A stretch of DNA of 64,000 nt, from NCBI RefSeq assembly GCF_014117325.1, contig NZ_CP059732.1, positions 1,922,001 through 1,986,000 on the forward strand, in the 5' to 3' direction. Below are positions 8,998 through 49,244 of the stretch, one piece after another. The notes under the pieces were generated by a model. The model was not told where the DNA came from, searched no databases, and was given only the letters and a program-made list of their open reading frames with translations. This DNA is from Spirosoma foliorum (GTDB lineage Bacteria > Bacteroidota > Bacteroidia > Cytophagales > Spirosomataceae). The translations under genes were made by a program, and so were the position numbers. The stretch's first letter is position 1. Each line of letters starts with the position of its first letter.

Positions 8998-9076
8998 TCC
9001 ATATTGGCAAAATGTAATTTCGGATCAGAAAATTACTGAAACAGTTCTTCGTTTTTTGACCTTAAACCTTAGCCTT

Positions 9077-12136: not shown

Positions 12137-12154
12137 CCTGACTTTCCGACGATC

Positions 12155-30808: not shown

Positions 30809-30959
30809 ATCAACTAAAACCAAGTATTCTCAACAATTGACAATGGTCTTTAAGGTCAAATCAGGCAGGAATTGCAACGTAGATTTCTTGCACTAAAGTA
30901 CGGATTTATTGCACAATATTTCAATAAAACGAACAAAAGCTAGGCAAGGGATTGTACCG

Positions 30960-33900
30960 CTAAAAGCCAAAACTCAAGCCTACATTATAGCCCCGAGTGA
31001 CTGGATAGTTCCCCACATCAATCCCGAATGTAGCATCAGCCAGGCCACCAACGGCGGGGTCTAATCCGCTGTATGTAGTAATGGTAAACAAATTCGTCGC
31101 TGATACCGAGATTCGTAACCGATTCATTTTTAGTCGATTCAATAACACATTCGAAAAACTATAACCTAAATTTAGATACTGCATCCGACCGTAGGACCCA
31201 TGTTCAATATAGTACGAATTAGGTTGCGTGTTCGTACTGAAATTGGTTGCACTCTCGAAAATAGGCACGTTTGTATTGGTATGCGTAGGCAACCACGAAT
31301 CCTTCACCCGCTCACTTATTGCAGCTCCTGTGAACGAGGGGTAGAAGTCAGTAAACCACCGTTGGTTGTTGAAAATCTGGTTTCCCAATGAGACATATAG
31401 ATTGGAGCTCAAGTCGAAGCCTTTGTACTTTATTCCCAGTGTAATACTGCCCGTGAACTTAGGGATGGGGCTGCCCAAAAACGTCCGATCATTGTCGTCA
31501 ATTTTATTGTCGCCATTCAAATCGGCGAAGCGAAAACGGCCAGGAGCGGCTCCTAACTGCGTCGCAGCTGATGCCACTTCTTCCTTGCTGTTGAATAGGC
31601 CAACTACTTGATAACCATAGAACGATGATAAGGCATGACCCGGCTCATTACGTACTACCGGCCCACCAATGCGCGTACCACCGCCCGTGAAATACGGTAC
31701 CAACGGCGCAATGGCCGTAATCTGGTTGCTTAGGAAGCTGCCGATTCCGGTCACTTCATAACTCAAATCGCCAACAAGTTTCCCCCGGGTGGTAAGCAGT
31801 AAATCAATCCCCTGATTGCGCATACTCGCTACATTCAGGAACGGTGCATTGGCTCGAACGCCCACCACGCTTGGTAAGGCCAATTGGTAGAGTAAATCTT
31901 TGGTATCTTTCCGCCAGATGTCGATCATTACCTCCAGGCGATTATTGAAAAACGAACCATCTATCCCGATGTTGGATGTAATGCTCGTCTCCCATTTGGC
32001 ATCTGGATTACCATATTGACTTGGATAGTAACCCGATTCGATGGAATTATTTGTCGCTCCCAGATCGTAACCATTGGCCGTGTTGGTAGAAAATAAATTG
32101 AACTGGTTAGTTGAACTGAGGTAGTTGGAGTTACCCATCAAGCCATAACCACCCCGAATTTTTAGATCCGAAATCCAGGACAGTTTCTTCATGAATTCCT
32201 CAGCAGAAATGCGCCAAGCTACAGAAACCGCTGGAAATACGCCATACCGATTGGCGGGGCCGAATTGGGACGATCCATCCCGACGTACCACCGCCGTAGC
32301 AATATACTTATCGTTATAGGTGTATTTGGCCTGCCCAAATATCGAGTAAAAGTTGTTGCCTTTTCCGTACGTGCTGGACACCTGACGCGTTGCACCGGGC
32401 GTTGTGGTGTTCAGTGTTACGTAGTTAGGGTCGGTGGAGAACGGATTAATACCCGAACCTGCGATACCCCGTCCATTACCCGTGTTGAGTGCTTCCAGCC
32501 CCGCCAGCACACTCAGATCGTGTTTGCCGAACGTTTGCTTATACTGCGCTGTGTTGGTAAAGGTCCAGGCCAGCCCTACATTGGATGCCTCCGAATAGGT
32601 GTAGTTCGCGATATTTTCGGAGTTTTCGTAAGTAGATCGAACGTATGAATTGGCGTAGTTCGTGTAGTATGACCCTCCCAGACTACTCTTCAGTGTTACA
32701 GCAGGAATGGGGTCGTACGCTACGTAAATGTTCCCCAAAATAGTCACCGTATGATTCAAATTATTGGCCTGTCCATCCCGACTGGCTACAGGATTTCGGG
32801 GATTGCTGAACCCCGGAGCGGCTGTGCCCGCATACCCTCCGAACGCATTATAGACAGGAATAATGGGCGCCATCCGAAACGATGACAGAATGTCGTTCTC
32901 ATCCGAAGCAACGCTTGAATTATTGTTGGTACTATTGCCAAGAGCATTCCCCGTTGTGCCCTGCAAGCCCGTCGCCGATACGTAGGCCACCTGGATATTC
33001 TCGCCAAACCGAAGTTTTTTGCTGAGGTCAAATTCGGTGTTGGCGCGAAAGCTATAGCGCGAAAAATCATTGTTACGAACGATACCCGCCTGTCGCTGCA
33101 TACCCAGACTTAGGTAGTACCGACTAGTCTCGGTTCCCCCCGAAAATCCCAGCGTGTGCCGCGTCATGGGTGCCACCCGGGTAATGGCTTTATACCAAAC
33201 AGTTCCCTGCTTATTAGCGGGAATGACGTTATAGATCGCCCTATTGGCCGAATTAACGTTGTAATTAGTCTGTTCAGCAGCTATGTCAATGGATCCAATA
33301 ACGCCTGGTATCTTGCCAACTAGCAGATAATCAGGTAATACGGGCGTTTGGCCCGAACCATACTGACCATTGGCGATACTGGTGAAACTATCTGGCCCTA
33401 CTGTGCCTCCCGTTTGAAAGATGTCATTCCGGCGCGCCTGCCAGGTCCAGTCGGCCTGTTCCTGAGGAGTCAGAATCGGAAGCCCTTTTCCTGGATCCGT
33501 TACCCCATACAAGCCGTCGTAGCTAATGCTCAGTTTCTGGGCCTTGCGCTGACCTTTTTTCGTAGTCAGGACAATTACCCCCGCGGCCGCCCGAGCCCCG
33601 TAGATGGAAGCCGACGCGGCATCTTTTAAAACGGTGGTGGTTTCAAGGTCATTGGGATTCAGAAACTGAATACTCTGGGTAGGCACCCCATCGACAATAT
33701 AAAGCGGTTGATTCCCGCCAAAGGAGCCAAACCCCCGCACCCGGATCTGGCTGGATGTTCCGGGCTGCCCGTTGGTAATAACCGTAACGCCCGCCACGCG
33801 CCCCTGAAGTTGCTGTTCGACATTTGCCGAAGGAACTAGTTGAAGTTGGGCTGGTTTGACCGTCGAAACAGCGCCCGTTACATCCCGACGATTTTCCGTC

Positions 33901-34631
33901 GAGTAACCTGTGATCACGATCTCGTTTAATAGTTTCGTATCCTCCGCCAGCTGTACATTAATTGTTGTGTTTTCGAAAAAAGGATACTCCTGTGTAGTAT
34001 AACCGATGTAGGAAAAAACCAATGTTCCAGCACGTTCTTGAACGGATAAATTATATGTACCATTGAGCGAAGCTGTGGTGCCAGATGTGGTGTTTTTGAG
34101 TACAACGGTAACACCGGGCAATGCCTCTCCAGTTGTGGTTACTACTTTGCCGGTGAGTTGAAAAGTAGGCTGTTTTTCGTCGGGCAACGCTGATTTAGTG
34201 GACTTGGTAGCGGAGAGGCTGGTTGAGTATTTCTGGGCGGAAGCAGTTTCGCGAATCGGTTCTTGGTAAAGAATATAGGTGTGTTTTGTCCGTTGAAATT
34301 TTATGTTGAACGGTGATAGCAATCGGGTTAGAATCCGGTCTAAATTTCTTGGCAAGTTGGTCAATACGTCCGACGAGATAAATTTATTCGCCAGCAAATC
34401 GGTATCGTAGTTGAAAATAACGTGATGGCGAAGCGCTAATTCATTTAGGATCTGACCCAAATTTGCTTTTGCCGATGCGGTCATCACAGACGGTGGAAGT
34501 GAGCCTCTTTTTTTTGAAGGCAGTTGCTGGCCATATGTATCAGTTTGGCCGTTACCTATAAGCCCAAGCAATAGAAGTCCCGCAAAAAAAAGCGTTCTCA
34601 ATCTAATTTTTCTGAGGGTAAATGGGCTCAT
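30960..34631 (-). CDS. SusC-type TonB-dependent transporter with N-terminal STN signalling domain
   Basis: A 1223-residue outer-membrane protein starting at ATG 34631 (the TTG at 34661 is less likely). After the signal peptide (TLFFAGLLLLGLIGNGQ) comes an STN domain (LGQILNELALRHHVIFNYD..., residues ~45-115), then a carboxypeptidase-regulatory-like domain, the NEIVITGYST box, a plug (VRGFGSFGGNQPLYIVDG) and the barrel to NVGLSFGF. STN domains relay substrate binding to a FecR anti-sigma, here encoded immediately upstream. No SusD is next to it. Its barrel shares long identical DNA tracts with the SusC at 43.7-47 kb. The likely ligand is the same as or related to that of the other transporter. 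Confidence 0.92.
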   Translation of the reverse strand: MSPFTLRKIRLRTLFFAGLLLLGLIGNGQTDTYGQQLPSKKRGSLPPSVMTASAKANLGQILNELALRHHVIFNYDTDLLANKFISSDVLTNLPRNLDRILTRLLSPFNIKFQRTKHTYILYQEPIRETASAQKYSTSLSATKSTKSALPDEKQPTFQLTGKVVTTTGEALPGVTVVLKNTTSGTTASLNGTYNLSVQERAGTLVFSYIGYTTQEYPFFENTTINVQLAEDTKLLNEIVITGYSTENRRDVTGAVSTVKPAQLQLVPSANVEQQLQGRVAGVTVITNGQPGTSSQIRVRGFGSFGGNQPLYIVDGVPTQSIQFLNPNDLETTTVLKDAASASIYGARAAAGVIVLTTKKGQRKAQKLSISYDGLYGVTDPGKGLPILTPQEQADWTWQARRNDIFQTGGTVGPDSFTSIANGQYGSGQTPVLPDYLLVGKIPGVIGSIDIAAEQTNYNVNSANRAIYNVIPANKQGTVWYKAITRVAPMTRHTLGFSGGTETSRYYLSLGMQRQAGIVRNNDFSRYSFRANTEFDLSKKLRFGENIQVAYVSATGLQGTTGNALGNSTNNNSSVASDENDILSSFRMAPIIPVYNAFGGYAGTAAPGFSNPRNPVASRDGQANNLNHTVTILGNIYVAYDPIPAVTLKSSLGGSYYTNYANSYVRSTYENSENIANYTYSEASNVGLAWTFTNTAQYKQTFGKHDLSVLAGLEALNTGNGRGIAGSGINPFSTDPNYVTLNTTTPGATRQVSSTYGKGNNFYSIFGQAKYTYNDKYIATAVVRRDGSSQFGPANRYGVFPAVSVAWRISAEEFMKKLSWISDLKIRGGYGLMGNSNYLSSTNQFNLFSTNTANGYDLGATNNSIESGYYPSQYGNPDAKWETSITSNIGIDGSFFNNRLEVMIDIWRKDTKDLLYQLALPSVVGVRANAPFLNVASMRNQGIDLLLTTRGKLVGDLSYEVTGIGSFLSNQITAIAPLVPYFTGGGTRIGGPVVRNEPGHALSSFYGYQVVGLFNSKEEVASAATQLGAAPGRFRFADLNGDNKIDDNDRTFLGSPIPKFTGSITLGIKYKGFDLSSNLYVSLGNQIFNNQRWFTDFYPSFTGAAISERVKDSWLPTHTNTNVPIFESATNFSTNTQPNSYYIEHGSYGRMQYLNLGYSFSNVLLNRLKMNRLRISVSATNLFTITTYSGLDPAVGGLADATFGIDVGNYPVTRGYNVGLSFGF
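32230..32652. repeat. 423-bp tract identical to 44945-45367
   Basis: Base-by-base reading shows the tract is identical to the second SusC gene at a constant offset of 12,715 bp, with divergent DNA on both sides. It lies in the barrel-coding part. Confidence 0.9.
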
Positions 34632-34665
34632 GCTCAAGTTCAGCAAACGGATAAAAAACAAGTCG

Positions 34666-35667
34666 TTAATCTATCAGATAGCCTCCTTTTGTTGCTCTTG
34701 CACGCACATTGTAGATTGTTTGAAGCTGATTATAGAAGGTCTGAATGGAGTCTGTGCCAACCGAGCCTGTAAATCGTTTCCGAAGCAGTTCCGGCCGACT
34801 AACCGTGGTGCGAATACCGTAACTATCCTCTAATTTCTGAAAGACGTTATTTAGTGTTTCTCCGTTAAAAATCAACGTATTGTTCAGCCAGGCCGTGTAG
34901 ATACGTGGGTCTGCCTTTTCTTTCGTCAGATAATTGGTCTTGGGTAATAAAGTAGCTTTTTCGCCGGGCACCAAAATCATATGCTGATCGGTACGGCTGC
35001 GTTCATTCAACTGCACTTTGCCTTCCGCCAGCATCACTTCCGTTTTACCCCGCCGGTCGTTCACGTTAAAAACGGTTCCCACTACGTTTATGTCCAGACG
35101 GGCTGTTTTGACTGTAAACTTCACCAGCTCATTTTGTTGCCGTTGTTTCCTGACTTGAAAAAAAGCTTCGCCCGTTAGCTTTACCTCCCGATTCGACCAA
35201 CTCCGTTTGTATTCCATGCATGAATTGCCGTTCAACGTGACCAGTGAGCTATCTGGCAGGACCACCGTATGCATCTTGCCGAATGCAGTTGAATAAAAAA
35301 CGGGTTGCTGATACCACCAGAAGCCTGCACCTACCATAATTAAGACCGCTACCGATGCGGCAATGGCATACCAGCGTCGCCAGAGGGGAATCACAATGCC
35401 CATCGGATGCTCCAGAACGTCGGGGGCGATCCGCTGCTGAATAAGCTTCCAGTTCTGCTGTAACTCATCGTCAGAAAATACGTCAGGTTGAGCTGATAAC
35501 TGCCTGATAATCTGAGCGGCTTCTTCTATCTCTGCCTGTTTGTAGGGATGTTTCTGCACCCACTCGAGCCAGAATGAATTAGAGGCTTGTGTAGGATTGG
35601 TTACCCAGGCGATAAAGGCATCGTCGGTAATAAAGTCTTGTGTGGAAAATAGCTCGTACGAGCGCAT
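34666..35667 (-). CDS. FecR-family anti-sigma factor
   Basis: A 333-residue inner-membrane protein. The N-terminal cytoplasmic part (~1-85) would hold the sigma factor, a single membrane helix follows (WYAIAASVAVLIMVGAGFWW, residues ~90-110), and the periplasmic FecR domain has VVLPDSSLVTLNGNSCMEY and GEAFFQV, then FNVNDRRGKTEVMLAEGKVQLN, with a C-terminal part (NNVFQKLEDSYGIRTTV) that contacts STN domains. Its stop is about 35 bp from the ATG of the STN-SusC. Together with the ECF sigma at 30.1 kb it forms a trans-envelope sensing relay for the transporter. Confidence 0.9.
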   Translation of the reverse strand: MRSYELFSTQDFITDDAFIAWVTNPTQASNSFWLEWVQKHPYKQAEIEEAAQIIRQLSAQPDVFSDDELQQNWKLIQQRIAPDVLEHPMGIVIPLWRRWYAIAASVAVLIMVGAGFWWYQQPVFYSTAFGKMHTVVLPDSSLVTLNGNSCMEYKRSWSNREVKLTGEAFFQVRKQRQQNELVKFTVKTARLDINVVGTVFNVNDRRGKTEVMLAEGKVQLNERSRTDQHMILVPGEKATLLPKTNYLTKEKADPRIYTAWLNNTLIFNGETLNNVFQKLEDSYGIRTTVSRPELLRKRFTGSVGTDSIQTFYNQLQTIYNVRARATKGGYLID

Positions 35668-35735
35668 ATACTGTAGTAGTTATATCTAGTCTTAAAGTAC
35701 AGAGCCGTCCAGAAATTACCCCTTTATCCTGAAAC

Positions 35736-35761
35736 TTTACTGAATTGTCAGACTCAGTAAA
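35736..35761. terminator. Short hairpin between sugar-dehydrogenase fusion and FecR genes
   Basis: TTTACTGA (35736-35743) and TCAGTAAA (35754-35761) form an 8-bp stem with a 10-nt loop, 28 bp beyond the stop of the upstream gene on the minus strand. It may separate two transcription units. Confidence 0.35.
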
Positions 35762-35788
35762 CTTGCTTTGAGTGTAGCTAGAGAGACC

Positions 35789-38700
35789 TCATTCCTCAAA
35801 CCGGATATTGGTTAATTTGAGAATTTCGTCGTTTGGTTTGGTTGGTTTGATGGCGAAAAAATACACGTCATGACGACCAGAAACCGGTTTGTTGAGCTGC
35901 CCCCTTACCGTTTTTAACGTATCCCAGCCCCTCGTCGGTCCATAGCCTGTTGTACTAATAATTGGGCCCGCCTGCGAATCAATACGTACCTCAATTTCTC
36001 CCGTCTGATTAGCCGATGCGTACTCATACAGAAAGGCTTTAATCCCGGATAAGTCAATGCTTTTTAACAAGATATAAGACTTATGCCCACCTGGCGACAG
36101 GTTATCCCGGAAGCGGGGAAAACCAACGTGGGCGTCTGCGTAGGCGGGTTTCACGTTCGCATTTCGTAGCGTTACTACGTCTGTACCGGTGAGTGGCCCA
36201 ACTACTTTACCGCCCTTATCCGCGTAGGAAGCTATGATTGTGTACTGCCCTTTTACGTCATCTTTCGAATGATCTTTTAGCGATAAGGAACCTTGGATTG
36301 GCAAGAGTGTCTGGCTTTTTTGCTTGTCGGTCAGGGAGAAAATATAGCGCACCATTTCCTGTGCATCCTGCACCGAAAGCTGCGGGTGCGCACTCATCAC
36401 ATGCTCGGTTCCCCACGCACCACCACCACCATTTATAATCTTGGTGCCTAATTGTTCAACAGTTCCAACCTGCTCTTTGTACTTATGCGCAATCGCCAGA
36501 AACGACGGCCCCACTGACACCTTATCGACTGTATGACAAGCCTTACAATCGCTACCCGCTATCAGCGTTTTGCCCAGCGAATTCGTTTCAGCAGCGAGCA
36601 TTGGCGTGTTAGGAGACGTAATGCCCGGTGCGCTCGGCTGGGGATTGTAGGCGTAAACGACTTTAACTCGTTTGGGATCTACTGCTACATCCTCTTTGTC
36701 TTTCACTTTTACAGCATATGTAAACGGCTTGTTCTCCCAGAAAAAGGATTTGTTGCCCGCGCTCGTAATGGCCACCGTTGGCCGGGTGTTTCCTACTTTC
36801 ACCGTTACCGTATCAGCACCAACTAATCCAGCATGATCGGTTGCCTTTAGAATGACCTTGTAAACGCCCGGCTTTTTGTAGGTGTATGTAGCAGTCGGGG
36901 TTGTAGCGCCTACAGTTTTGCCATCGAACAGCCATTGATACGTCACCTGATCATCGTCGTCAAGATCGTGTGAACCCTGGCTTTTGAACGTCACCCGTAA
37001 TGGAGCCTGCCCGTCGGCTTCACGTAAAATGGGATAGTTACGTCGCTCCGACGTCAGGAAGACCATTTTATCGACTCGTGCTTCAGTCGCAGAATCTGCG
37101 ATGCTTGCCTGAGCAACGGGTGCCCGATTGCCGGTATTGTACTCGATTTTCACTAGTCGAGCATCTTCATTATCAGCGCCATAGATCGAGCCGTATTCCA
37201 GCATATACATCACACCATCAGGTCCAAACGCCAGATCAATAGGACGCCGAAAATCGCCGTTGGTAGCCATAAACGATTCACTACGTACATAATTCTCTTT
37301 CTCGTCGAATCGCAGCGCCATCACCCAGTTGCGCATCCAGTCAAATACAAATAAAGCGCCGTCGTAATAATCCGGGAATTTGTTCGTCGACGTAGTATTT
37401 TTGTTGAAGGTGTAAAACGCCCCCGCCATTGCGCTCCGTCCGCCCACACCCAATTCGGGAAACTCCTCCGATGCCGCGTATGGATACCAGATCATGGCGG
37501 GAATGGCGGGTGGCAATTGATTTAGGCCGGTGTTGTTCGGCGAGTTGTTGACGGGTGCCGCCGGGTCGAATTTGGGGCCAGCGGTTTTTGTTGCAAAATC
37601 CCATTTCGCATACGCAAAGTTGTTGCCCATGAAGTAAGGCCAGCCGAAATTGCCTGCTTTCCTGGCCTGATTAAACTCATCGTAGCCACGGGGCCCCTGA
37701 AGGCCATCTTTACCTGCATCCGGCCCAATTTCACCCCAGTATAAGACCGATGTTTTCGGGTTTACCGCAATTCGATACGGGTTGCGACAGCCCATAATGT
37801 AGATTTCTGGTAAAGTTTTATCAGTTCCTTTCGGGAATAAATTACCGTCAGGAATGGTATAAGTGCCGTCTGTCTCGGGATGAATTCGCAGTATTTTTCC
37901 TTTAAAATCGTTTGTGTTGCCCGCCGAGCGTTGCGAATCCAGACTGTAAAATTCCTTGCCTGATCGTTCATCCAATGGAGAATATCCATCGGATGGAAAG
38001 GGGGCGGAACTGTCGCCGGTAGACAGAAAAAGATTACCGTCTTTATCCCAGGCCAGCGATCCGCCGTGGTGCGACCCGCTAGTTTTCTGTACCGGTACTT
38101 TCAGCATTACTTTCTCTGATCCCAAATCCAACGTATTGTCAGGATTCATGGTGAATCGTGAAAGTTGAAAAGCCAGTGTCTCCTCAGTCAGGCCAGCGGG
38201 GGCATAGTACACATAAAGATTACGATTTTGGGCGAATTCTGGATCGAGCGCCAGACCTATCAAACCCGTGCCGCCCATGTTCGTGATCGGGAATTTGTGG
38301 ATCAACATTTTCGTTCCAGTGCGCGGATCAAAGACCGACAGGTTGCCGAACAGTTCTGTAAAAAATACCCGACCATCGGGCGCAATCGCCAGTTCCATTG
38401 GTGAATTCAAATCATTGACCAGCACTGTTTTTACGAAGCGGTTTTGTTCGGGCGTCACTTTGGCGTAGGCTTTCCTATAGTTAAGCGGTTTACCATCACC
38501 AATGGCGTACTTAATGCCGCCCAGCAAATGGCTCAGAAATAACGGCTCACTAAAACTCTCGTCGGTATGGCCTCCACCAGTGTAAAAGGCTCGTCCACCA
38601 TCGAACTCGTGATACCAACTAATGTGATGATTCGAGCCATTGGTACCGCCCTCATAAGTACTTTCGTCCAGATCGGCCAACACGTTTATACCTGAATAGA

Positions 38701-39244
38701 ATGATCGGTAGTTATACCACTCGTCGGTACGTTCCCATTGATCGGGCAGCATTTTCGTTGCCGGATGGTTTTTTTGGGTCACATCAACGGTTGCTTTTCG
38801 TACATTAGGATTGTGCGGATGACTGGAAAAATGAGCGCCCATTAATTTACCATACCACGGCCAGTCGTATTCCGTATCGGCTGCCGCGTGAATACCGACA
38901 TAACCGCCACCCGCCTGGATGTATCGTTCGAATGCCGCTTGTTGCTTACCATTCAAAACATTGCCTGTCGTACTGTTGAAGATAACGGCCGCGTATTGTT
39001 TCAGGTTTTCGTCGGTAAATAAGGCCGCATTTGTCGTGGTATCAACCGAAAAACCATTTACGTTTCCCAGCCTCTGAATCGCGGCAATAGCGAATGGAAT
39101 GGAGGTGTGTTTCCAGCCTTTGGTTTTCGAAAATACCAGTATACGGGGCGCATTAGCAGACTGTCTGACTGTCATTCCCGAATAGAGCAGGAACGTAGCG
39201 CCCATCAACCCTATAAAATAAAGTCTTGCCTTTATTAATGTCAT
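35789..39244 (-). CDS. Secreted multidomain ThuA / sugar dehydrogenase / PKD / cytochrome c / CBM6-like protein
   Basis: About 1151 residues with a signal peptide (ATG 39244 favoured over 39265). Modules in order: ThuA-like domain (~33-250; ILVFSKTKGWKHTSIP, YVGIHAAADTEYDW), GSDH-type PQQ-dependent six-bladed propeller (~270-670; GDSSAPF, GCRNPYRIAVNP, EYGSIYG), PKD domain (~710-800; YQWLFDGKTVG, YTYKKPGVYKVILKATD), a c-type heme segment CKACH near residue 900 and a C-terminal CBM6-like sandwich (SIDLSGIKAFLYEYAS). Such a chain could oxidise a sugar in the periplasm and pass electrons through the attached heme. It follows another ThuA gene. This fusion is known in Bacteroidota proteins, but its substrate is not established here. 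Confidence 0.83.
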   Translation of the reverse strand: MTLIKARLYFIGLMGATFLLYSGMTVRQSANAPRILVFSKTKGWKHTSIPFAIAAIQRLGNVNGFSVDTTTNAALFTDENLKQYAAVIFNSTTGNVLNGKQQAAFERYIQAGGGYVGIHAAADTEYDWPWYGKLMGAHFSSHPHNPNVRKATVDVTQKNHPATKMLPDQWERTDEWYNYRSFYSGINVLADLDESTYEGGTNGSNHHISWYHEFDGGRAFYTGGGHTDESFSEPLFLSHLLGGIKYAIGDGKPLNYRKAYAKVTPEQNRFVKTVLVNDLNSPMELAIAPDGRVFFTELFGNLSVFDPRTGTKMLIHKFPITNMGGTGLIGLALDPEFAQNRNLYVYYAPAGLTEETLAFQLSRFTMNPDNTLDLGSEKVMLKVPVQKTSGSHHGGSLAWDKDGNLFLSTGDSSAPFPSDGYSPLDERSGKEFYSLDSQRSAGNTNDFKGKILRIHPETDGTYTIPDGNLFPKGTDKTLPEIYIMGCRNPYRIAVNPKTSVLYWGEIGPDAGKDGLQGPRGYDEFNQARKAGNFGWPYFMGNNFAYAKWDFATKTAGPKFDPAAPVNNSPNNTGLNQLPPAIPAMIWYPYAASEEFPELGVGGRSAMAGAFYTFNKNTTSTNKFPDYYDGALFVFDWMRNWVMALRFDEKENYVRSESFMATNGDFRRPIDLAFGPDGVMYMLEYGSIYGADNEDARLVKIEYNTGNRAPVAQASIADSATEARVDKMVFLTSERRNYPILREADGQAPLRVTFKSQGSHDLDDDDQVTYQWLFDGKTVGATTPTATYTYKKPGVYKVILKATDHAGLVGADTVTVKVGNTRPTVAITSAGNKSFFWENKPFTYAVKVKDKEDVAVDPKRVKVVYAYNPQPSAPGITSPNTPMLAAETNSLGKTLIAGSDCKACHTVDKVSVGPSFLAIAHKYKEQVGTVEQLGTKIINGGGGAWGTEHVMSAHPQLSVQDAQEMVRYIFSLTDKQKSQTLLPIQGSLSLKDHSKDDVKGQYTIIASYADKGGKVVGPLTGTDVVTLRNANVKPAYADAHVGFPRFRDNLSPGGHKSYILLKSIDLSGIKAFLYEYASANQTGEIEVRIDSQAGPIISTTGYGPTRGWDTLKTVRGQLNKPVSGRHDVYFFAIKPTKPNDEILKLTNIRFEE

Positions 39245-39282
39245 CTTGAAATAAGTTGGAATCATCTAGCCCGATTGTTCAC

Positions 39283-40053
39283 TCAGGGCACTTGAGCTGT
39301 TTTAGCTTTCGTATAATCCAGGGGTTCATTCTTGCCAATACTGTATTGTATACCCGCCAGAATATGTTGCTGAAATAAGGGATCACGGTAGGCTTCGCTG
39401 AGGTGGCCCAGCGCGGTATAAAACGACCGGCCACCATCGAATTTGTGCTTCCAGGCAAGCGGGTGATACACGCCTTCGGTGCCGCCCTGATACGTACTTT
39501 CATCGGCTGTCAGCAGTACATGTACGTCGGTCATGCGTTTTTTGAAATTGTACCATTCATCTTTGCGCTTCCACCGTTTAGGTAGTTGACGTGTTGATGG
39601 GTCATTCACATCGGCGACCTGCACAACGCCATCCACCGGATCAGGCGGGTGATTTACGAAAACGGCACCGGTCAACTGGCCAAACCACTCCCAATCTTTC
39701 TCCGAGGCCGATGCCGAGTGAATACCTACATAGCCGCCACCCGCCTGAATATACCGCTCAAAAGCTGCTTGTTGGGCTGGATTCAGTACGTCGCCGGTTG
39801 TGCTAAGCCAGATAATGGCTGCGTACTTTTTCAGAGTGTTGTCGGTGAAAAAATCTGCATTTTTTGTTGTGTCTACGGCGAACCCATGCTGCTGTCCCAT
39901 TTGTATAATGGCCGCTATACCATCGGGAATTGACTCATGATAGTAACGTAGCGTTTTGCTGAAAATCAGAACTTTAGGTTTGCCGGATTGGGCGAAACTC
40001 AGCATTGAAATGCCTAGTAAAAAGGCCAAAAGAAAGGGCAATATTTTTTTCAT
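39283..40053 (-). CDS. Secreted ThuA-like (trehalose-utilization-type) protein
   Basis: A 256-residue protein with a signal peptide (LPFLLAFLLGISMLSFAQ). The ThuA fold reads ILIFSKTLRYYHESIPDGI (glutamine-amidotransferase-like Rossmann start), YVGIHSASASEKDWEWFG, RKDEWYNFKK and FYTALGHLSEAY. It is clearly homologous to the N-terminal domain of the next protein, so they are tandem paralogs. ThuA proteins have been linked to conversion of 3-keto sugars in trehalose/sucrose-type catabolism; in Bacteroidota many are secreted and unassigned. The gap to the next gene is about 40 bp, so co-transcription is likely. Confidence 0.85.
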   Translation of the reverse strand: MKKILPFLLAFLLGISMLSFAQSGKPKVLIFSKTLRYYHESIPDGIAAIIQMGQQHGFAVDTTKNADFFTDNTLKKYAAIIWLSTTGDVLNPAQQAAFERYIQAGGGYVGIHSASASEKDWEWFGQLTGAVFVNHPPDPVDGVVQVADVNDPSTRQLPKRWKRKDEWYNFKKRMTDVHVLLTADESTYQGGTEGVYHPLAWKHKFDGGRSFYTALGHLSEAYRDPLFQQHILAGIQYSIGKNEPLDYTKAKTAQVP

Positions 40054-40096
40054 ATTTTATTCGTTTCAGGTCATTGACAAGGCAAATCTGTATGCC

Positions 40097-40185
40097 GTTC
40101 GTGGCAATACCCCCAATCTCCTGAAGGGGGCTCATCAGCCGGAGGTTTTAGCCCCCTTCAGGAGATTGGGGGTATTGCCACGAAC
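40097..40185. repeat. Perfect 36-bp inverted repeat after esterase stop
   Basis: Arms 40097-40132 and 40150-40185 are perfectly complementary with a 17-nt loop. The second arm touches the esterase stop codon, so RNA of the minus strand forms a 36-bp hairpin directly after the gene. It may act as a terminator or RNA stabiliser, or be an intergenic palindromic element of the kind scattered in Bacteroidota genomes. Confidence 0.9.
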
Positions 40186-41858
40186 TAAACGCTTCTTTTA
40201 TAGTAAAGAGGCTCCAGCATTTTCCGTGCTTCGCCGTCAGGGTCGTTCCGTACTTCACTGGTTTTGTTGAAGACCATCATCGCGCCTTTGTCGGGCGTAA
40301 AGGTGGGCCAATTGGGGAGTCCTTTATGATTCGGATTGCCGGTTCGGGCGAAATTTATCCAGGCCTGACTCATTTTGTTAGCCAACTCCCGAGCTTCGTC
40401 TCCTCCGCCAGTCATCGTTTCGCAACGGTCGGTATTCGCAAATACAAACGGGATTTCGCTGCAATGGAATGAGCGGGGGCGGCCGTCCAACACGGGCGTC
40501 TGCCAGGAAAAAAGGTAGAGATAAACAGGGGCGGCATTTTGGGCTGCTTTCCGTTCGGCTTGTAGGTAGGCCATTGGATTATACGGAGCTACGTAGGAAA
40601 GCAGTTCAACGGGCTTCGCTTTTGGGTGAACCTTACGTAACACCTCATAAATCTGGATGCTCTTGTCGCCAAAGCGCTCAGCCAGTTTCTTTTTCACCCC
40701 ATCATCATCGATTGATTCCATACCGGGGTTGTTAATACTGGCCGAGGCTTCATTGCGGTTTGTCCCGATGATCATCGGGATATTCGCTGAATAGGCTGGA
40801 ACGGCAGGCTCAAACGGATGGGCAGGCAACACAGTGCCATCCACAACCGGTTGCCACCCCGCCCGACCAACGCCTGGCGGTATTGTGGTTCCCATTTTCT
40901 TCTCGGCAGCCATTCCCGCTTCCGTTATGCGCGCAAAAGGGAGTTTATGAATATCAGCAATGTTCGACCGGTTGAGTTTCAGATCATTCAACACATGCTC
41001 AGCGAGTTGGGCCGCGTAGGTATGCGTTGCCACCTGAACCGTTGAGCTACTTTCCGAAATGCCTTTATGAAACAAACCTTTTGCTGACGGCATTGCCATG
41101 AGCGTCGTTACTTTGGCCGCTCCACCCGACTGCCCGAAAATCGTTACATTGCCCGCATCGCCCCCAAACTGAGCAATGTTGTCGCGTACCCATTCGAGGG
41201 CCGCCACCAAATCAAGCATACCCACGTTCCCCGATTGAGCGTACTGGCTGCCGTAATCAGACATATCCAGAAACCCGAAAACGTTAAGCCGGTGGTTGAT
41301 CGAGACAACAACGACATCACCGAATCGACTTAGATTTTCGCCGTCGTAAGAAGGGTGTTCCTGACTGGAGCCGGAGAAAAAAGCCCCCCCGTGCATCCAG
41401 AATAGAACCGGCCGTTTCTTTCCATCGTTAACGCCCGGCGACCAGACATTCAATCGTAGGCAGTCTTCGCCCTGCAAGCCGTCGTTCCACTGATATAGAA
41501 ATGCGTACTCTTCCGAACTCCAGCCGCCATTTGGTTTCTGGGGACAGACCGGCCCGTAAATGAGTGAGTTACGAACGCCCGTCCAGGGAGCGAGTTTGGC
41601 GGGCGGCATAAAACGAGCCTCTTCTGCGGTGGTTGCTGCGTACGGAATTCCCTTAAAATTGACAATGCCATTATGCGTATAGCCGCGCACTTTCCCCGCC
41701 GTTGTTTCCACCACTGCATTCGATTCCGAAGCGACAACGCTGTCTTTCCGATTGAAACCTGTGGGCTTGGCAACGACTTCTAACGGAATGGGGGAGACGC
41801 CAAAAGTGGTAGCACCAAGGCTAAGCTTTTGAAGGAATTCTCTACGGTTATTACTCAT
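40185..41858 (-). CDS. Secreted type-B carboxylesterase (alpha/beta hydrolase) with Tat-like signal
   Basis: A ~557-residue enzyme starting at ATG 41858 (the ATG at 41909 would overlap a hairpin). The N-terminus NNRREFLQKLSLGATTFG looks like a twin-arginine signal, consistent with an exported folded protein. The nucleophile motif GQSGGAAK (Ser in IFGQSGGAA), the GGAFFSGS oxyanion loop, the acid in NRNEASAS and the late PVYLYLFSW segment are those of carboxylesterase type B. The enzyme could deacylate a glycan or aromatic ester, for example acetyl or feruloyl groups, before sugar oxidation. It is third in the SusC-SusD cluster on the minus strand. Confidence 0.83.
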   Translation of the reverse strand: MSNNRREFLQKLSLGATTFGVSPIPLEVVAKPTGFNRKDSVVASESNAVVETTAGKVRGYTHNGIVNFKGIPYAATTAEEARFMPPAKLAPWTGVRNSLIYGPVCPQKPNGGWSSEEYAFLYQWNDGLQGEDCLRLNVWSPGVNDGKKRPVLFWMHGGAFFSGSSQEHPSYDGENLSRFGDVVVVSINHRLNVFGFLDMSDYGSQYAQSGNVGMLDLVAALEWVRDNIAQFGGDAGNVTIFGQSGGAAKVTTLMAMPSAKGLFHKGISESSSTVQVATHTYAAQLAEHVLNDLKLNRSNIADIHKLPFARITEAGMAAEKKMGTTIPPGVGRAGWQPVVDGTVLPAHPFEPAVPAYSANIPMIIGTNRNEASASINNPGMESIDDDGVKKKLAERFGDKSIQIYEVLRKVHPKAKPVELLSYVAPYNPMAYLQAERKAAQNAAPVYLYLFSWQTPVLDGRPRSFHCSEIPFVFANTDRCETMTGGGDEARELANKMSQAWINFARTGNPNHKGLPNWPTFTPDKGAMMVFNKTSEVRNDPDGEARKMLEPLYYKRSV

Positions 41859-41874
41859 GGTTATATTCGTTTGA

Positions 41875-41906
41875 TGTGATGTCAGTTTCTCAAAACTGAC
41901 ATCACA
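41875..41906. terminator. Perfect 14-bp hairpin between SusD and esterase genes
   Basis: Arms 41875-41888 and 41893-41906 with a 4-nt loop lie in the short gap between the SusD stop and the esterase ATG. In the minus-strand message it could reduce read-through or protect the SusC/SusD part, giving lower expression of distal genes. No strong T tract. Confidence 0.6.
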
Positions 41907-41915
41907 CATTACTTA

Positions 41916-43658
41916 TCAATAGCCCGGATTTTGCGTCAGAACGCTTTTGCCCTGATAATCAATTTGAGTTTGCGGGATTGGGATATATTCGTCTCGACCT
42001 GGGGTGTATTTGCCACCACTATAAGCAACTGGTAACTTCTTTGATTCGTAGGCCAGGAATGCATTTAACACAGTAGAAGCCGTTCCCCAACGAACCAGAT
42101 CAAAGAAGCGGTGACCTTCGCCCGAAAGTTCAAGTTTGCGCTCAAATTGAACCGCCGTTCGGGCCGCGACTTTATCAGTCCAAGGCGTTGTGTAGTTGGC
42201 AATTACGTAGTTCGCGGCATTCTTACCATCAGGCATCTTTACCCACGTATCAGCGTTGGCGGCCCGCGTCCGAATCATGTTGACGTACTTGCGAGCCGTT
42301 TCCAGACTTCCTATTTCAATTTCGCACTCAGCTGCCATCAGCAGTACGTCGGCAAAGCGGATGATGTTGTAATTGATGGCCGAATACGCATCGGTTGACG
42401 TACTAGCATCAGTCAGGATTTTGTCCTGCGATTTGTAGTAGATAAACTTTTTGGGCGAATAGGGCCCAGCGAAACTCTGGTCGCGAATCCAGGCAAAGCC
42501 AGGATGAATCGACCAATCCAGATACGGAATACCCCGACGACCAACCGACCAATCCAGCCGGGGATCAACTGGGCCCGCATCAGGCGTAAATGGCTGATTT
42601 GAGAGAATTCCCTGATCCGTTTTCAACTGGTTTGCATCCGAATTGTAGGAACCATCCAACAAAGGAAGGCCAGTGCCATCCACCCGAAACGAGTTCGCTA
42701 ATTCAAAGCTGGGTGGGAAATAGCCGCAGCAACCCGCCGGACCACTCGAGCCCGTGTTGTATGGGAAATTATTGGCTAGGTCAGTGGCGGCATTATCCGA
42801 ACTACCTGTATTGGCCGCATTCTGAATGGCAAAAATCGACTCAGCGTTGGTTTCTTTGGCCGCGTTAAAAATATCGGTATAGTTCGCTACGAGACCATAT
42901 TTCATTCCGCCTGATGTAACGCCGTTGGCAATCACCTGATCGAAAAGCGCTTTGGCCTCTGTATATTTCTTTTGATACAGGTAGGTTTTCGCCAGATAAG
43001 CCATAGCTGCCCACTTGTTCGCCCGACCGACCAGCGTTTGGGTTTCAGGCAGATTATCGACTGCATATTTGAAATCGGCTTCGATTTTAGGCCATATTTC
43101 AACGTTGTTCGGCACTTTTTCGGCACCCGTTCCGTAGCCCACCGATTCATCTACATAGGGCACAAGATTGAAACTCCGTTTGAGATCGAAGTAATAGTGA
43201 GCACGCAGAAAACGGGCTTCAGCCGATATCCGCTGTTTGTCGGTCGCCGTTACATCGACACTAGCCGATGGAAGCGCACGTAGCACCGCATTTGCCCGGC
43301 TGATTCCTTCAAACATGGCACTCCATTTCTGGCCAATGTCAAAAAGGCTGGGATATAACTGATACGTCATCCAAGGAACGAGGTCGCCGTAATCGCCTGA
43401 ATTTGAGCCCTTATTGGCTTCTCCTCCCGATATACTTCCTCGCAGCCAGTTAAAGGAACTGGTTACCCGCCGGAAGCCGCGCCCGTTCAACTGGGCATAT
43501 GACGACACCAGAATGCCCTCAATACCCGCCTTGGATGTTAACTGGTCGCTGGATAATTGGCCGGTGGGCGCCACCTCCAGAAACTTATCCTGGCAGGCAG
43601 AAGTCGACAACATCAGCGTTGCGGTCACTATGATTAATTTACTGGTAAGATTTTTCAT
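41916..43658 (-). CDS. SusD/RagB family lipoprotein
   Basis: A 580-residue lipoprotein starting at ATG 43658, with lipobox Cys in MLSTSACQDKFLEV. TPR-like features appear at RISAEARFLRAHYYFDL and the C-terminal RagB part ends ...PIPQTQIDYQGKSVLTQNPGY. It starts 17 bp after the SusC stop, giving a SusC/SusD pair on the minus strand. It should bind the glycan on the surface. The SusC gene ends without overlap if this start is used; a TTG start at 43685 would overlap and lack a better signal peptide. Confidence 0.92.
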   Translation of the reverse strand: MKNLTSKLIIVTATLMLSTSACQDKFLEVAPTGQLSSDQLTSKAGIEGILVSSYAQLNGRGFRRVTSSFNWLRGSISGGEANKGSNSGDYGDLVPWMTYQLYPSLFDIGQKWSAMFEGISRANAVLRALPSASVDVTATDKQRISAEARFLRAHYYFDLKRSFNLVPYVDESVGYGTGAEKVPNNVEIWPKIEADFKYAVDNLPETQTLVGRANKWAAMAYLAKTYLYQKKYTEAKALFDQVIANGVTSGGMKYGLVANYTDIFNAAKETNAESIFAIQNAANTGSSDNAATDLANNFPYNTGSSGPAGCCGYFPPSFELANSFRVDGTGLPLLDGSYNSDANQLKTDQGILSNQPFTPDAGPVDPRLDWSVGRRGIPYLDWSIHPGFAWIRDQSFAGPYSPKKFIYYKSQDKILTDASTSTDAYSAINYNIIRFADVLLMAAECEIEIGSLETARKYVNMIRTRAANADTWVKMPDGKNAANYVIANYTTPWTDKVAARTAVQFERKLELSGEGHRFFDLVRWGTASTVLNAFLAYESKKLPVAYSGGKYTPGRDEYIPIPQTQIDYQGKSVLTQNPGY

Positions 43659-43674
43659 GTTGCAGTTTAGTCGA

Positions 43675-46600
43675 TTAGAAGCCAAAACTCACCCCTACAT
43701 TGTAGCCCCGAGTGACTGGATAGTTCCCCACATCAATCCCGAACGTAGCATCCGAGCCGCCACCTACTGCTGGGTCCAGACCGCTGTATTTGGTGATCGT
43801 AAACAAATTCGTTGCCGACACCGACACCCGCAACCGGCTGAGGTTGGCCCGACTTAGCAGTGCATTAGGAAAGGTATATCCCAGGTTCAGATACTGCATG
43901 CGCCCATACGACCCATTTTCAACGTAATAGGAGTTAGGTTGGGTGTTGGTACTGAAATTAGCCGCACTTTCGAAAATCGGTACGTTCGTGTTCATGTTGG
44001 TAGGCAACCACGAATCCTTTACTCTGGAGCTAACAGCGGCCCCCGTAAATGAGGGATAGAAGTCTGTAAACCACCGCTGGTTATTGAAAATCTGGCTTCC
44101 TAACGAAGCATATAAATTGGTGTTCAGATCGAAACTTTTGTATTTCAAGCCCAGCGTGATGCTTCCCGTAAATTTGGGGATCGGACTGCCCAGATACGTT
44201 CGATCATTGTCATCAATCTTTTTGTCGCCATTCAAATCGGCGAAGCGAAAACGGCCAGGAGCAGCGCCCGTTTGGGTCGCAGCCGATGCCACTTCTTCCT
44301 TGCTGTTGAATAGGCCAACTACTTGATAACCATAAAATGACGACAACGTATGGCCCGCTTCGTTACGTACCACCGGCCCACCAATGCGCGTACCACCGCC
44401 CGTGAAATACGGTACCAACGGCGCAATGGCCGTAATCTGGTTGCTTAGGAAGCTGCCGATTCCGGTCACTTCATAACTCAAATCGCCAACAAGTTTCCCC
44501 CGGGTGGTAAGCAGTAAATCAATCCCCTGATTGCGCATACTCGCTACATTCAGGAACGGTGCATTGGCTCGAACGCCCACCACGCTTGGTAAGGCCAATT
44601 GATATAGTAGGTCTTTGGTATCCTTTCGCCAGAAATCAACAACTACTTCCAGGCGATTATTGAAAAACGAACCATCTATCCCGATGTTGGATGTAATGCT
44701 CGTCTCCCATTTGGCATCGGCATTCCCGATCTGGCTTGGGTAGTACCCCGTGGCAATCGAGTTGTTCGTTGCACCAAGGTCGTAGCCGTTGGCCGCATTA
44801 GTAGCAAACAGGTTGAACTGGTTAGTTGAACTGAGGTAGTTGGAGTTACCCATCAAGCCATAACCACCCCGAATTTTCAGGTCTGATACCCATGGCAGAT
44901 TCTTCATAAATTCTTCGGACGAGATACGCCACGCAGCCGAGAAAGCTGGAAATACGCCATACCGATTGGCGGGGCCGAATTGGGACGATCCATCCCGACG
45001 TACCACCGCCGTAGCAATATACTTATCGTTATAGGTGTATTTGGCCTGCCCAAATATCGAGTAAAAGTTGTTGCCTTTTCCGTACGTGCTGGACACCTGA
45101 CGCGTTGCACCGGGCGTTGTGGTGTTCAGTGTTACGTAGTTAGGGTCGGTGGAGAACGGATTAATACCCGAACCTGCGATACCCCGTCCATTACCCGTGT
45201 TGAGTGCTTCCAGCCCCGCCAGCACACTCAGATCGTGTTTGCCGAACGTTTGCTTATACTGCGCTGTGTTGGTAAAGGTCCAGGCCAGCCCTACATTGGA
45301 TGCCTCCGAATAGGTGTAGTTCGCGATATTTTCGGAGTTTTCGTAAGTAGATCGAACGTATGAATTGTTGTAATTCGTGAAATACGTTCCGCCCAGGCTG
45401 CTACGTAGCATGAGGCCTGGAATCACATCATATTCCAGGTAAGCATTCCCCGAACCGAAGACAGTGTAGTTGATATTATTGGCTACACTCTCGCGATTCG
45501 CCACTGGATTTCGGGGATTGTTGAACCCCGGAGCGGCTGTGCCCGCATACCCTCCGAACGCATTATAGACCGGAATAATGGGCGCCATTCGAAATGCAGT
45601 CAATACGTCGTTTTCGTCGCCCGATACACTGGCATTGTTATTTGTGCTATTTCCCAATGAGTTCCCGACACTCCCCTGCAGCCCTGTCGCCGATACGTAG
45701 GCCACCTGGATATTTTCGCCAAACCGAAGTTTTTTTGTGATATCAAATTCGGTGTTGGCCCGCAGGGTGTAACGCGAGAAATTATTGTTTGTAATAATTC
45801 CCGCCTGCTGTTGCATACCCAGACTCAGGTAGTATCGGCTGTTTTCGGTCCCGCCCGAAAATCCCAGCGTATGTCTCGTCATAGGGGCAGTTCGTGTAAT
45901 GGCTTTGTACCAGTCGGTGCCTCGCTTGTTAGCCGCAATCACACTGTAGATCGCACCATTGGCCGGATTGACATTATATTTTGCCGCTTCTGCCGTCAAA
46001 TCGACAGCACCAACAACGCCTGCGTTCTTGCCAACTAATAGATAATCAGGCAATACCGGTGTTTGCCCTGATCCGTATTGACCATTGGCGATACCAGCGA
46101 AGCTATTCGCACCAATAGCCGTTCCCGACTGAAAAAGATCATTCCTGCGCGCCTGCCAGGTCCAGTCTGCCTGTTCTTGGGGATTCAGGATAGATGGGCC
46201 TTTACCCGGATCAGTCACACCATATAACCCATCGTAACTAATACTGAGTTTTTGCGCCTTGCGCTGACCTTTTTTCGTAGTCAGTACAATCACTCCGGCT
46301 GCCGCTCTGGCGCCGTAGATCGAAGCCGAAGCGGCATCTTTCAGGACGGTTGTGGTTTCAATGTCGTTGGGGTTAATGAACTGAATACTTTGGGTAGGTA
46401 CACCATCTACCACGTAGAGCGGTTGATTACCGCCAAACGAACCAAAACCCCGTACCCGAATCTGGCTGGAGGTACCGGGTTGTCCATTGGTGATCACCGT
46501 AACCCCCGCCACCCGACCCTGCAACTGCTGCTCCACGTTAGCCGAGGGAACTAGTTGAAGCTGGGCTGGTTTAACCGTCGATACAGCGCCCGTAACGTCC

Positions 46601-46962
46601 CGGCGGTTTTCTGTCGAGTAACCTGTGACCACGACTTCGCTCAGCGCATTGGCTTCATCTTCAAGTTTTACCTCAATGGAAATGCGGTTGCCAATTATTA
46701 TTTCCTGTGTTTTAGATCCAATTGAGGATATGATCAACACTGGGTTTTCTCCCCGAATGGTCAAGGCAAAATTGCCATTAGCATCAGAAGATGTACCAGT
46801 TTGCGTTCCTTTTAATACGATATTGGCCCCTGGGATTGCGCCATCGCTTCCTGTAATTTTACCCGTTACCCGACGATCCTGAGCGAAAGCATTGAGGCTC
46901 CATAGCAGCAGCATTGAACCCAGAAAAGTAGCCTGCAGTACTCTGTAGAACGATTCTTTCAT
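43675..46962 (-). CDS. SusC/RagA family TonB-linked transporter (no STN domain)
   Basis: A 1095-residue protein: signal peptide (LLLWSLNAFAQ), a carboxypeptidase-regulatory-like domain, the SEVVVTGYST box, a plug (VRGFGSFGGNQPLYVVDG) and the barrel ending in NVGVSFGF. Protein sequence in the plug is almost identical to that of the 31-34.6 kb SusC, but the DNA there differs at many third positions, while several barrel tracts are identical in DNA. It lacks STN, so it is not the direct sensing partner of the FecR. It pairs with the downstream SusD. ATG 46962. Confidence 0.93.
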   Translation of the reverse strand: MKESFYRVLQATFLGSMLLLWSLNAFAQDRRVTGKITGSDGAIPGANIVLKGTQTGTSSDANGNFALTIRGENPVLIISSIGSKTQEIIIGNRISIEVKLEDEANALSEVVVTGYSTENRRDVTGAVSTVKPAQLQLVPSANVEQQLQGRVAGVTVITNGQPGTSSQIRVRGFGSFGGNQPLYVVDGVPTQSIQFINPNDIETTTVLKDAASASIYGARAAAGVIVLTTKKGQRKAQKLSISYDGLYGVTDPGKGPSILNPQEQADWTWQARRNDLFQSGTAIGANSFAGIANGQYGSGQTPVLPDYLLVGKNAGVVGAVDLTAEAAKYNVNPANGAIYSVIAANKRGTDWYKAITRTAPMTRHTLGFSGGTENSRYYLSLGMQQQAGIITNNNFSRYTLRANTEFDITKKLRFGENIQVAYVSATGLQGSVGNSLGNSTNNNASVSGDENDVLTAFRMAPIIPVYNAFGGYAGTAAPGFNNPRNPVANRESVANNINYTVFGSGNAYLEYDVIPGLMLRSSLGGTYFTNYNNSYVRSTYENSENIANYTYSEASNVGLAWTFTNTAQYKQTFGKHDLSVLAGLEALNTGNGRGIAGSGINPFSTDPNYVTLNTTTPGATRQVSSTYGKGNNFYSIFGQAKYTYNDKYIATAVVRRDGSSQFGPANRYGVFPAFSAAWRISSEEFMKNLPWVSDLKIRGGYGLMGNSNYLSSTNQFNLFATNAANGYDLGATNNSIATGYYPSQIGNADAKWETSITSNIGIDGSFFNNRLEVVVDFWRKDTKDLLYQLALPSVVGVRANAPFLNVASMRNQGIDLLLTTRGKLVGDLSYEVTGIGSFLSNQITAIAPLVPYFTGGGTRIGGPVVRNEAGHTLSSFYGYQVVGLFNSKEEVASAATQTGAAPGRFRFADLNGDKKIDDNDRTYLGSPIPKFTGSITLGLKYKSFDLNTNLYASLGSQIFNNQRWFTDFYPSFTGAAVSSRVKDSWLPTNMNTNVPIFESAANFSTNTQPNSYYVENGSYGRMQYLNLGYTFPNALLSRANLSRLRVSVSATNLFTITKYSGLDPAVGGGSDATFGIDVGNYPVTRGYNVGVSFGF
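44945..45367. repeat. 423-bp tract identical to 32230-32652
   Basis: The second copy of the identical tract, in the same orientation and frame as in the other SusC gene. A second identical run of about 230 bp, 44372-44601, equals 31657-31886 at the same offset. Confidence 0.9.
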
Positions 46963-47881
46963 GAATATTGACTTGATTTAGAACATGAATTGAACAGCTG
47001 TCCGAAGCGCGATTCAGGCAACGGAAGTCATGCAGGCCTACATGAATTTCATCCCCTATTCAGCTGTTTTATCTGTCTAGTGCAGGAAAGGGCTGGAATT
47101 ATCCCTTTTCAAGTCAAAATTTTAATAAAATTCTTTTAACGTATTCGATCGATTGAGTTGGACTGGTATCAAACTTTGGTAAATCAGGTTCACTTCCTTG
47201 GCGCATATACACCATTGCAGAGTCTATTAACCGCACCTCTCGGAGACCCAATTCAACAAGCGTCTCATGCCGCTTAAGTAAGGGGAAGTTTTTACCCTGA
47301 ATGTGTAACAATCTATTTCAAGTAGGAAAAATTATATCGAAAAGGTATGCCCGAAAGGAAAGTAGCTTTGCCCCTGAGTAACGTACAGGTCGAGTTATCC
47401 CAAGGAATAGTCTATTGAACGATCGCTGAACAACGAAATGCCTAGTCCTGATTTATCCGGAGGTTTATTTGAACGATTTTATTGTATATTCAAGTTGAAG
47501 TTAATTTCCTGTCTAACAATTTTTTATATTGTTCATAGAATAGGAATCCTTGACTTTTTTGTGAACGATTTTTGGAATGACCCGTCTTGGAAAGTGTTGC
47601 CCTTTCTCGATCTTGGGATCCGCTGATTGTGCGAACAAGAGTTATAACTATGACAACTCTATACCGTAAAAATTGAGACTTTAAAAGCAGAAGATAAATT
47701 TGGGCGTATTGAACAATCGGTACAACTTCATAAAGGGAGGCCACACCTGAGAACTGCCCAAGCTGTCTCGATCAGCTACAGATGTCAATAAAAAAACGCT
47801 TGTGTGCGTAATCATGTTGAGCGACTTTTCGAAGTCAACTTGGCCATTCTTTACTATTATGGATGACGCCTATATTTATAT
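46963..47881. other. Mostly gene-free region upstream of susC, with one short unrecognised frame
   Basis: About 920 bp with no recognisable gene. A minus-strand frame at 47114-47311 (65 residues, with ELGLREVRLIDSAM) might be a gene remnant; I do not recognise it. The part near 46963-47110 should contain the susC promoter, but no clear TTTG/TAnnTTTG pair was seen. The downstream end abuts an insertion sequence. Confidence 0.3.
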
Positions 47882-48933: not shown

Positions 48934-49244
48934 TATATATTAGACCAGCCTGGCACTTATCAACTATAATCCATAGGTTTTATTGATTTTTGGGGTAAGC
49001 AGTAGGAGTAAGCAGTATAATTGCCTAGTTTTAGATAATCCTACCACCGCTTTGCCATGGACTACCTGTGCGACTAATCCATTTCCAATCACTGAGTGTT
49101 GGGCAGATAAGTTTTTTGAGCCAGGTAGGCGCTGGGTTGATGGCTGCCGGACCTAAATACCTTCCCTATTCCTCTTTCGATCTTGCTTGGACTTTTAGAC
49201 CAACTGACTTGCCGTTCGTTGAAAAAAAGCAGGAGATCCGCCCA

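Follow-up and report, generated by a model that had tools for sequence, protein, structure and literature searches.

The window analysed here is a stretch of 64,000 nucleotides from Spirosoma foliorum (contig NZ_CP059732.1, positions 1,922,001 to 1,986,000), and positions below refer to it unless another locus is named. On its minus strand, one locus holds two genes of the SusC/RagA family of TonB-dependent proteins, called A and B here, which share long tracts of identical DNA. On the family model TIGR04056, A scored 812 bits and B 814 bits, with a cut-off of 368. In the order of the minus strand, B is followed by its susD gene, a carboxylesterase gene, a ThuA gene, a long gene with ThuA, dehydrogenase, PKD, cytochrome c and CBM6 domains, fecR, A and the gene of an extracytoplasmic function (ECF) sigma factor (Table 1).

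A susD gene adjoins B, as in a SusCD pair, and none adjoins A. Gene A has Plug, CarboxypepD_reg and barrel domains and lies beside a FecR anti-sigma factor and an ECF sigma factor, which is the neighbourhood of a TonB-dependent transducer. The window genome has 15 FecR genes, 14 of which adjoin a SusC gene; in 13 of these 14 a SusD lies within 2.5 kb downstream, A being the only case without. As to a polysaccharide utilisation locus (PUL), the eight locus genes include esterase, CBM6, sugar dehydrogenase and ThuA domains and no glycoside hydrolase.

Table 1. Positions of genes, identical tracts and promoter-like elements in the window.
Feature	Position	Strand	Remarks
Gene A	30960..34661	-	1,233-aa SusC/RagA-family TonB-dependent protein; signalling-type N-terminal extension; no own SusD; putative sensor
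N-terminal part of A	33915..34661	-	codons 1-249, STN-like part and NTE; separate ancestry, unconverted
Gene B	43675..46962	-	1,095-aa SusC/RagA-family protein; SusD next; putative importer
SusD of gene B	41916..43685	-	PF07980, 154.5 bits
Carboxylesterase-family protein	40185..41909	-	PF00135
ThuA-domain protein	39283..40053	-	PF06283
ThuA, glucose/sorbosone dehydrogenase, PKD, cytochrome c and CBM6 protein	35789..39265	-	
FecR-type anti-sigma factor	34666..35667	-	PF04773, PF16344; 4 bp before A
ECF sigma factor	30101..30823	-	TIGR02937, 83.7 bits, cut-off 42.9
423-bp converted tract in A	32230..32652	-	140 whole identical codons, 671-810; barrel strands 7 to 12 of the B model
423-bp converted tract in B	44945..45367	-	
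230-bp converted tract in A	31657..31886	-	codons 926-1001; strand 15 into loop 9 of the B model
230-bp converted tract in B	44372..44601	-	
71-bp identical run in A	31933..32003	-	partner 44648-44718
65-bp identical run in A	32098..32162	-	partner 44813-44877
Unconverted island in A	32653..32789	-	codons 625-670; abuts the 423-bp tract; groups A with A and B with B for the window and S. agri
Promoter-like element ahead of fecR-A	35696..35723	-	AGGGRTRAT-N12-CTRYACT
Promoter-like element ahead of the B operon	47079..47106	-	same element

Identical tracts and recurrent gene conversion

The sequence-only reading had reported two exactly identical tracts of 423 and 230 bp in A and B, at a constant offset of 12,715 and within otherwise diverged genes. 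A base comparison confirmed both tracts, and most 50-base steps outside the longer runs were 52-88% identical. In addition to the runs in Table 1, exact runs of at least 41 bp were found at 31570-31619 (50 bp), 32807-32855 (49 bp), 30988-31028 (41 bp) and 31507-31547 (41 bp). The likeness begins at the common 3' end of the genes and fades past about 33,950. The two copies are direct repeats on one strand, 12.7 kb apart.

The genome (8.85 Mb, a single contig) contains at least 56 SusC matches, obtained by scoring 56 of 136 first-look candidates. One gene was split over two matches, of which the longer half was kept, and the comparison of the 55 SusC genes covered 1,485 pairs. A and B shared the longest exact run, 423 bp, followed by 104 bp in the second pair and 35 bp in the third. 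L043 and L044, two unlinked genes with 91% amino acid identity, were considered as a second converted pair and rejected, with a longest run of 104 bp, scattered identity and no convincing tract.

The comparison was extended to 36 Spirosoma genomes, the window genome included. A, B and a linked FecR (66-84% identical) were present in S. agri (G002) and S. arboris (G003), and in eight other genomes only FecR matches of 35-38% were found at E<=1e-60. The pairs are named A0/B0 (window), A2/B2 (S. agri) and A3/B3 (S. arboris). At the third positions of A codons 685-804, A0 and B0 were 100% identical and A2 and B2 90-100%, whereas the orthologues A0-A2 and B0-B2 reached 40-75%. Since the paralogues are alike where the orthologues are not, conversion took place separately in the window and S. 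agri lineages. The stretches concerned overlap, with 140 identical codons (671-810) between A0 and B0 and 136 (735-870) between A2 and B2. S. arboris has no run of at least 14 identical codons, yet shows an excess of conversion-type sites, so the conversion events there look older.

When the sites polymorphic in the six genes were shuffled 10,000 times, the observed A0/B0 run of 183 sites stood against a maximum of 27 and the A2/B2 run of 164 sites against a maximum of 47. The A3/B3 run was unremarkable, and no such run appeared in the six orthologous or cross pairs (A0-A2, B0-B2, A0-A3, B0-B3, A0-B2 and B0-A2). From codon 250 onwards, the quartet of the window and S. agri genes gave 125 gene-tree, 203 conversion-type and 13 cross-type sites; with S. 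arboris the counts were 53, 206 and 44, respectively. In the tree of the tract, A0 and B0 were identical and A2 paired with B2 (support 99/93), and in the tree of the islands A0 grouped with A2 (100/100) and B0 with B2 (100/99).

The conversion proposed from the window alone is thus borne out by the runs, third positions, shuffles, trees and quartet sites, and it is recurrent. We conclude that ectopic gene conversion between A and B occurred separately in at least two lineages, those of the window and S. agri, and that S. arboris shows traces of older events. The paralogues are more alike than the orthologues in sharp-edged tracts and this recurs independently between lineages, as is typical of concerted evolution.

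Conservation of the locus and its promoter-like element

A search for FecR orthologues (E<=1e-85, with up to 9 candidates scored in each genome) in 222 genomes of the family found the orthologue together with the locus in 7, three from Spirosoma and four Dyadobacter-type (Dyadobacter koreensis, Dyadobacter sp. CY347, D. soli and G093, which has the same genus code). The same gene set was present in all 7 save for a fusion in D. soli, where the ThuA gene and the ThuA/dehydrogenase gene form a single open frame of 1,365 aa (L205/L206). The sigma gene follows A in the window and S. agri (L040:2635-3324), and in the other five genomes it lies divergently between the dehydrogenase gene and fecR (L203, L205, L207 and L210 were among the loci compared). 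This change of position is a relocation within Spirosoma. Downstream of A in the other six genomes, no frame like the SusD of B was found. A scan of 10 of the 22 frames of at least 180 aa within 5 kb, which included every same-strand frame except the known sigma gene, gave no SusD domain.

B-like SusC genes with a SusD are widespread without the rest of the locus. Among 81 B-like loci, a set with some truncated entries and some places included twice, the esterase and ThuA proteins had relatives only in the three named Dyadobacter loci. In S. telluris, B-like SusC genes are split into two frames or truncated (L053:5591-8331, L052:5342-7867). The A/B pairs of the Dyadobacter-type genomes have 67-69% nucleotide identity, and in five of six comparisons among these genomes conversion-type sites did not exceed cross-type sites. 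Three of their four pairs were unremarkable in the shuffles; the run of one pair of B orthologues was reached in 47 of 2,000.

The upstream DNA of B from the 7 genomes aligned in one block, AAAGGGATAATy, followed after 12 bases by CTGyACT; in G093 the chosen start cut the block and the full match came from the genome-wide pattern search. The same element was found ahead of fecR in the window, S. agri, S. arboris and D. koreensis. In 14 whole genomes, the 12-spaced element was found 11 times in the 7 genomes that have A, always ahead of B or fecR, and once in 7 Spirosoma genomes that lack A. Five further matches had other spacings, and the reversed control gave 3. Because the pattern was derived from these very sites, its matches at B and fecR do not count as independent evidence; its near-absence elsewhere does. 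The element is a candidate promoter for the ECF sigma factor of the locus. The different regulation of A and B assumed in the sequence-only reading is not supported, as both genes lie in a single locus kept in 7 genomes and, in the window, have the same putative element ahead of their operons.

Four other Spirosoma genomes each contain one copy of a near-identical element whose spacer has 10 bases (AGGGRTAATCGCARCCGTCCTGYACT), at G001:C1:5401167, G007:C4:1286425, G015:C1:1710949 and G022:C1:2883440. Transposase genes lie on both flanks of the locus, an IS701-family gene at 47923-48927, about 1 kb upstream of gene B, and IS110-type and DUF772 genes at 28366-29154 and 24536-25360. The window also holds a further SusC/SusD pair beside a rhamnosidase-like gene (9056-13699) and a hybrid two-component sensor with an AraC-type output (49068-52304).

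Chimeric structure of gene A

The N-terminal part of A consists of an STN-like part and an N-terminal extension (NTE). A block FNYDTDLL is common to all 7 A N-termini. The STN model PF07660 matched five of the seven orthologous N-terminal pieces weakly (E<=1, best 1.2e-6), A0 not being among them. With full-length A proteins (n=6), three matched STN weakly and none reached the gathering score. A profile search of the PDB for STN in A returned nothing significant. In the available part of PMC7782687, STN-bearing SusC proteins of ECF-controlled PULs are described in which STN takes part in anti-sigma signalling and the NTE precedes STN, whereas in A the STN-like part precedes the NTE. This reversed order was seen in the window (30960-34661), at L038:15611-19279 and at L040:4827-8471.

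Other SusC proteins of the genome match the NTE of A (residues 168-249) with up to 50% identity. B is outside the eight best matches of this NTE and reaches 24-42% in 25-residue windows. In the plug and the barrel, A and B are 97% and 87% identical, respectively. The NTE tree united the 7 A genes in one clade (100/99), with the caveat that long branches come together at this point. In the plug and barrel tree, the Dyadobacter-type A genes stood apart and the Spirosoma A genes grouped with the Spirosoma B genes and 15 single B-like genes (100). A single clade of all A barrels was rejected by the approximately unbiased test (p-AU 5e-103), computed on a quick tree with a group chosen after seeing the tree. 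Across 11 comparisons, A was less conserved than B in every one.

We measured A0 and B0 relative to the Dyadobacter-type A genes. When the plug and barrel were divided into 40 windows, A0 was nearer than B0 in 9, farther in 18 and equal in 13. Codons 150-249 made up four windows, and A0 was nearer in each of them. Since A0 is more often farther than nearer in the plug and barrel and nearer in the N-terminus, the comparison shows a net overwriting from B to A in Spirosoma. Taken together, these results show that the flow concerned the plug and barrel only, that the N-terminus keeps a separate ancestry and that A is a chimera of this N-terminal part and a B-type barrel. Windows such as 400-424 and 1000-1024 may be remnants of the old A. 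The fixed A/B sites of Dyadobacter, just 33, were uninformative on the direction.

The tracts were placed on a model that AlphaFold predicted for B (mean pLDDT 70.3, pTM 0.68), with barrel strands assigned from the secondary structure of the model. From codon 250 onwards, 40 amino acid differences between A and B are common to the window and S. agri pairs, and they fall in loops (24), strands (11), turns (5) and the plug (0); the background positions number 455, 358, 45 and 125, respectively. The differences gather in loop 3 (11 of 40), strand 6 (4), loop 7 (4) and turn 10 (4). From codon 168 onwards, all three Spirosoma pairs have only 13 differences in common, and 9 of these lie in the NTE. 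Most SusD contacts of Bt1763 in the open state are made by its hinge loops, L6 and L7 (PMC7782687, available in part).

A putative sensor and importer pair

The explanation that we favour with good confidence is a split sensor/importer pair of SusC proteins in one conserved locus, the barrels of which are kept similar by recurrent conversion. Copying between A and B would proceed by ordinary homologous recombination. A would be a SusD-less surface sensor that signals via FecR to the ECF sigma factor, and this factor would transcribe the B-SusD operon and fecR-A from the common promoter element. Conversion would keep the ligand-binding barrel of the sensor similar to that of the importer, and the N-terminus and some barrel islands would stay specialised. 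The simplest reading is that A senses the substrate that B imports; presumably both proteins then bind one ligand and selection would favour the copying. The proposal that a barrel segment is copied between a sensing and an importing protein fits the DNA, whereas the two roles are read from domains and neighbouring genes.

Why the copying occurs is a separate question. One tentative answer, given somewhat less than even weight, is that the copying of importer DNA into the sensor gene holds both barrels of one regulon to the same changing ligand, which would be co-specificity maintained at the DNA level. Another, to which we give the same tentative weight, is neutral conversion, in which close and similar genes recombine until they have diverged and selection removes just those copies that spoil the N-terminus or the islands. 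The copies lie 12.7 kb apart on one strand, the Dyadobacter-type pairs at 67-69% identity show no clear conversion and the tracts do not clearly match functional loops, all of which suits the neutral account. It explains most of the DNA pattern, and on the cause of conversion the weights are nearly equal. Two observations fit the survival of a matched sensor without being decisive: the A barrel stayed B-like in three Spirosoma lineages and the A N-terminus was kept apart in 7 genomes.

It is unlikely that A is a second importer that borrows the SusD of B, with conversion keeping the docking surface for SusD alike. The lack of a SusD gene for A in 7 genomes is in line with it, as is the position of loops L4-L6 and L8 of the B model within converted tracts, with L6 and L7 serving as hinge loops in Bt1763 (PMC7782687, in its available part). 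But loop L3 and part of loop L7 retain fixed A/B differences, and A begins 4 bp after fecR with a signalling-type N-terminus. We regard identity by purifying selection without conversion as highly improbable. Both SusC proteins do have conserved segments, but the third positions of the tract are only 40-75% identical between species, much like the rest of the gene, and this free variation of the tract from species to species refutes selection at all sites. An assembly artefact has an equally minute probability. Repeats can confuse assemblers, but the genome is a single contig, each copy has its own flanks and the S. agri assembly shows its own near-identical pair of different sequence at the same place.

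Several observations weigh against the favoured explanation or parts of it. The STN of A0 lies below Pfam detection (PF07660). The promoter-like element was missing ahead of fecR in 3 of the 7 genomes when up to 3 mismatches were allowed. In the island tree, A3 of S. arboris paired with its own B3 (94/87). In single tracts, B-like to A-like sites of 12:5, 9:5, 21:14, 19:8, 12:13, 34:31 and, with the opposite leaning, 2:6 do not settle the direction, and the longer branch of A biases these counts. A confinement of the tracts to SusD-contact or ligand loops was sought on the B model and rejected, as no clean sorting appeared. The locus persists in the Dyadobacter-type genomes with no clear sign of conversion; neither its retention nor its function therefore depends on such copying. 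Among these genomes, the comparison of D. soli and D. koreensis gave p=0.031 at third positions and 0.36 at amino acids, and the run of identical sites in the CY347 pair was reached in just 17 of 2,000 shuffles.

Gene conversion among outer-membrane paralogues and SusC signalling via anti-sigma factors are already known. The bab outer-membrane protein genes of Helicobacter reportedly undergo gene conversion, with paralogues more alike within species. For prokaryotic paralogues, concerted evolution has been described for 26 genes (PMC6053082, available in part); these are likewise more alike within than between species, and TonB and Bacteroidetes are absent from the main text of that paper. Variants of ragA, a SusC homologue of Porphyromonas gingivalis, are ascribed in the available text of PMC5266723 to allele exchange or gene conversion; there the exchange is between strains and here between two paralogues of one locus. 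A search of open-access papers, PMC5266723 and PMC11868660 among them, turned up no account of SusC paralogues converting one another.

The locus resembles SusC/RagA systems with SusD such as Bt1762-63 in its family, the NTE and the SusD partner of B, but differs in that A lacks a SusD gene and has converted DNA in common with B. With the FecA/FoxA-type transducers and the STN-bearing SusC proteins of ECF-controlled PULs, A has in common a putative signalling-type N-terminus and the adjoining FecR and ECF sigma factor. In the known TonB-dependent transducers, a single receptor transports and signals (PMC11637429 and PMC11658791, each in its available part), whereas here the putative signalling copy without SusD and the SusD-paired copy are separate genes. 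PrhA of Ralstonia, a TonB-dependent receptor, starts an anti-sigma/ECF sigma cascade of the same type in response to sugars, and the available part of that paper mentions no converting importer partner (PMC11925246).

What appears to be new is the repeated conversion of a SusD-less, putatively signalling SusC by the putative importer SusC of its own locus, of which we found no case in the open-access literature. In the well-studied signalling systems of iron uptake, import and sensing fall to a single receptor and so cannot diverge from each other. Where sensing and import are split over two genes, the two can drift apart. The locus would be a natural case of genes repeatedly re-synchronised in Spirosoma, and not clearly so in the Dyadobacter-type genomes, in which a possible matching of sensor and importer by conversion can be tested. 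If true, repeated copying may be how the bacterium keeps its sensor matched to the transporter that it switches on.

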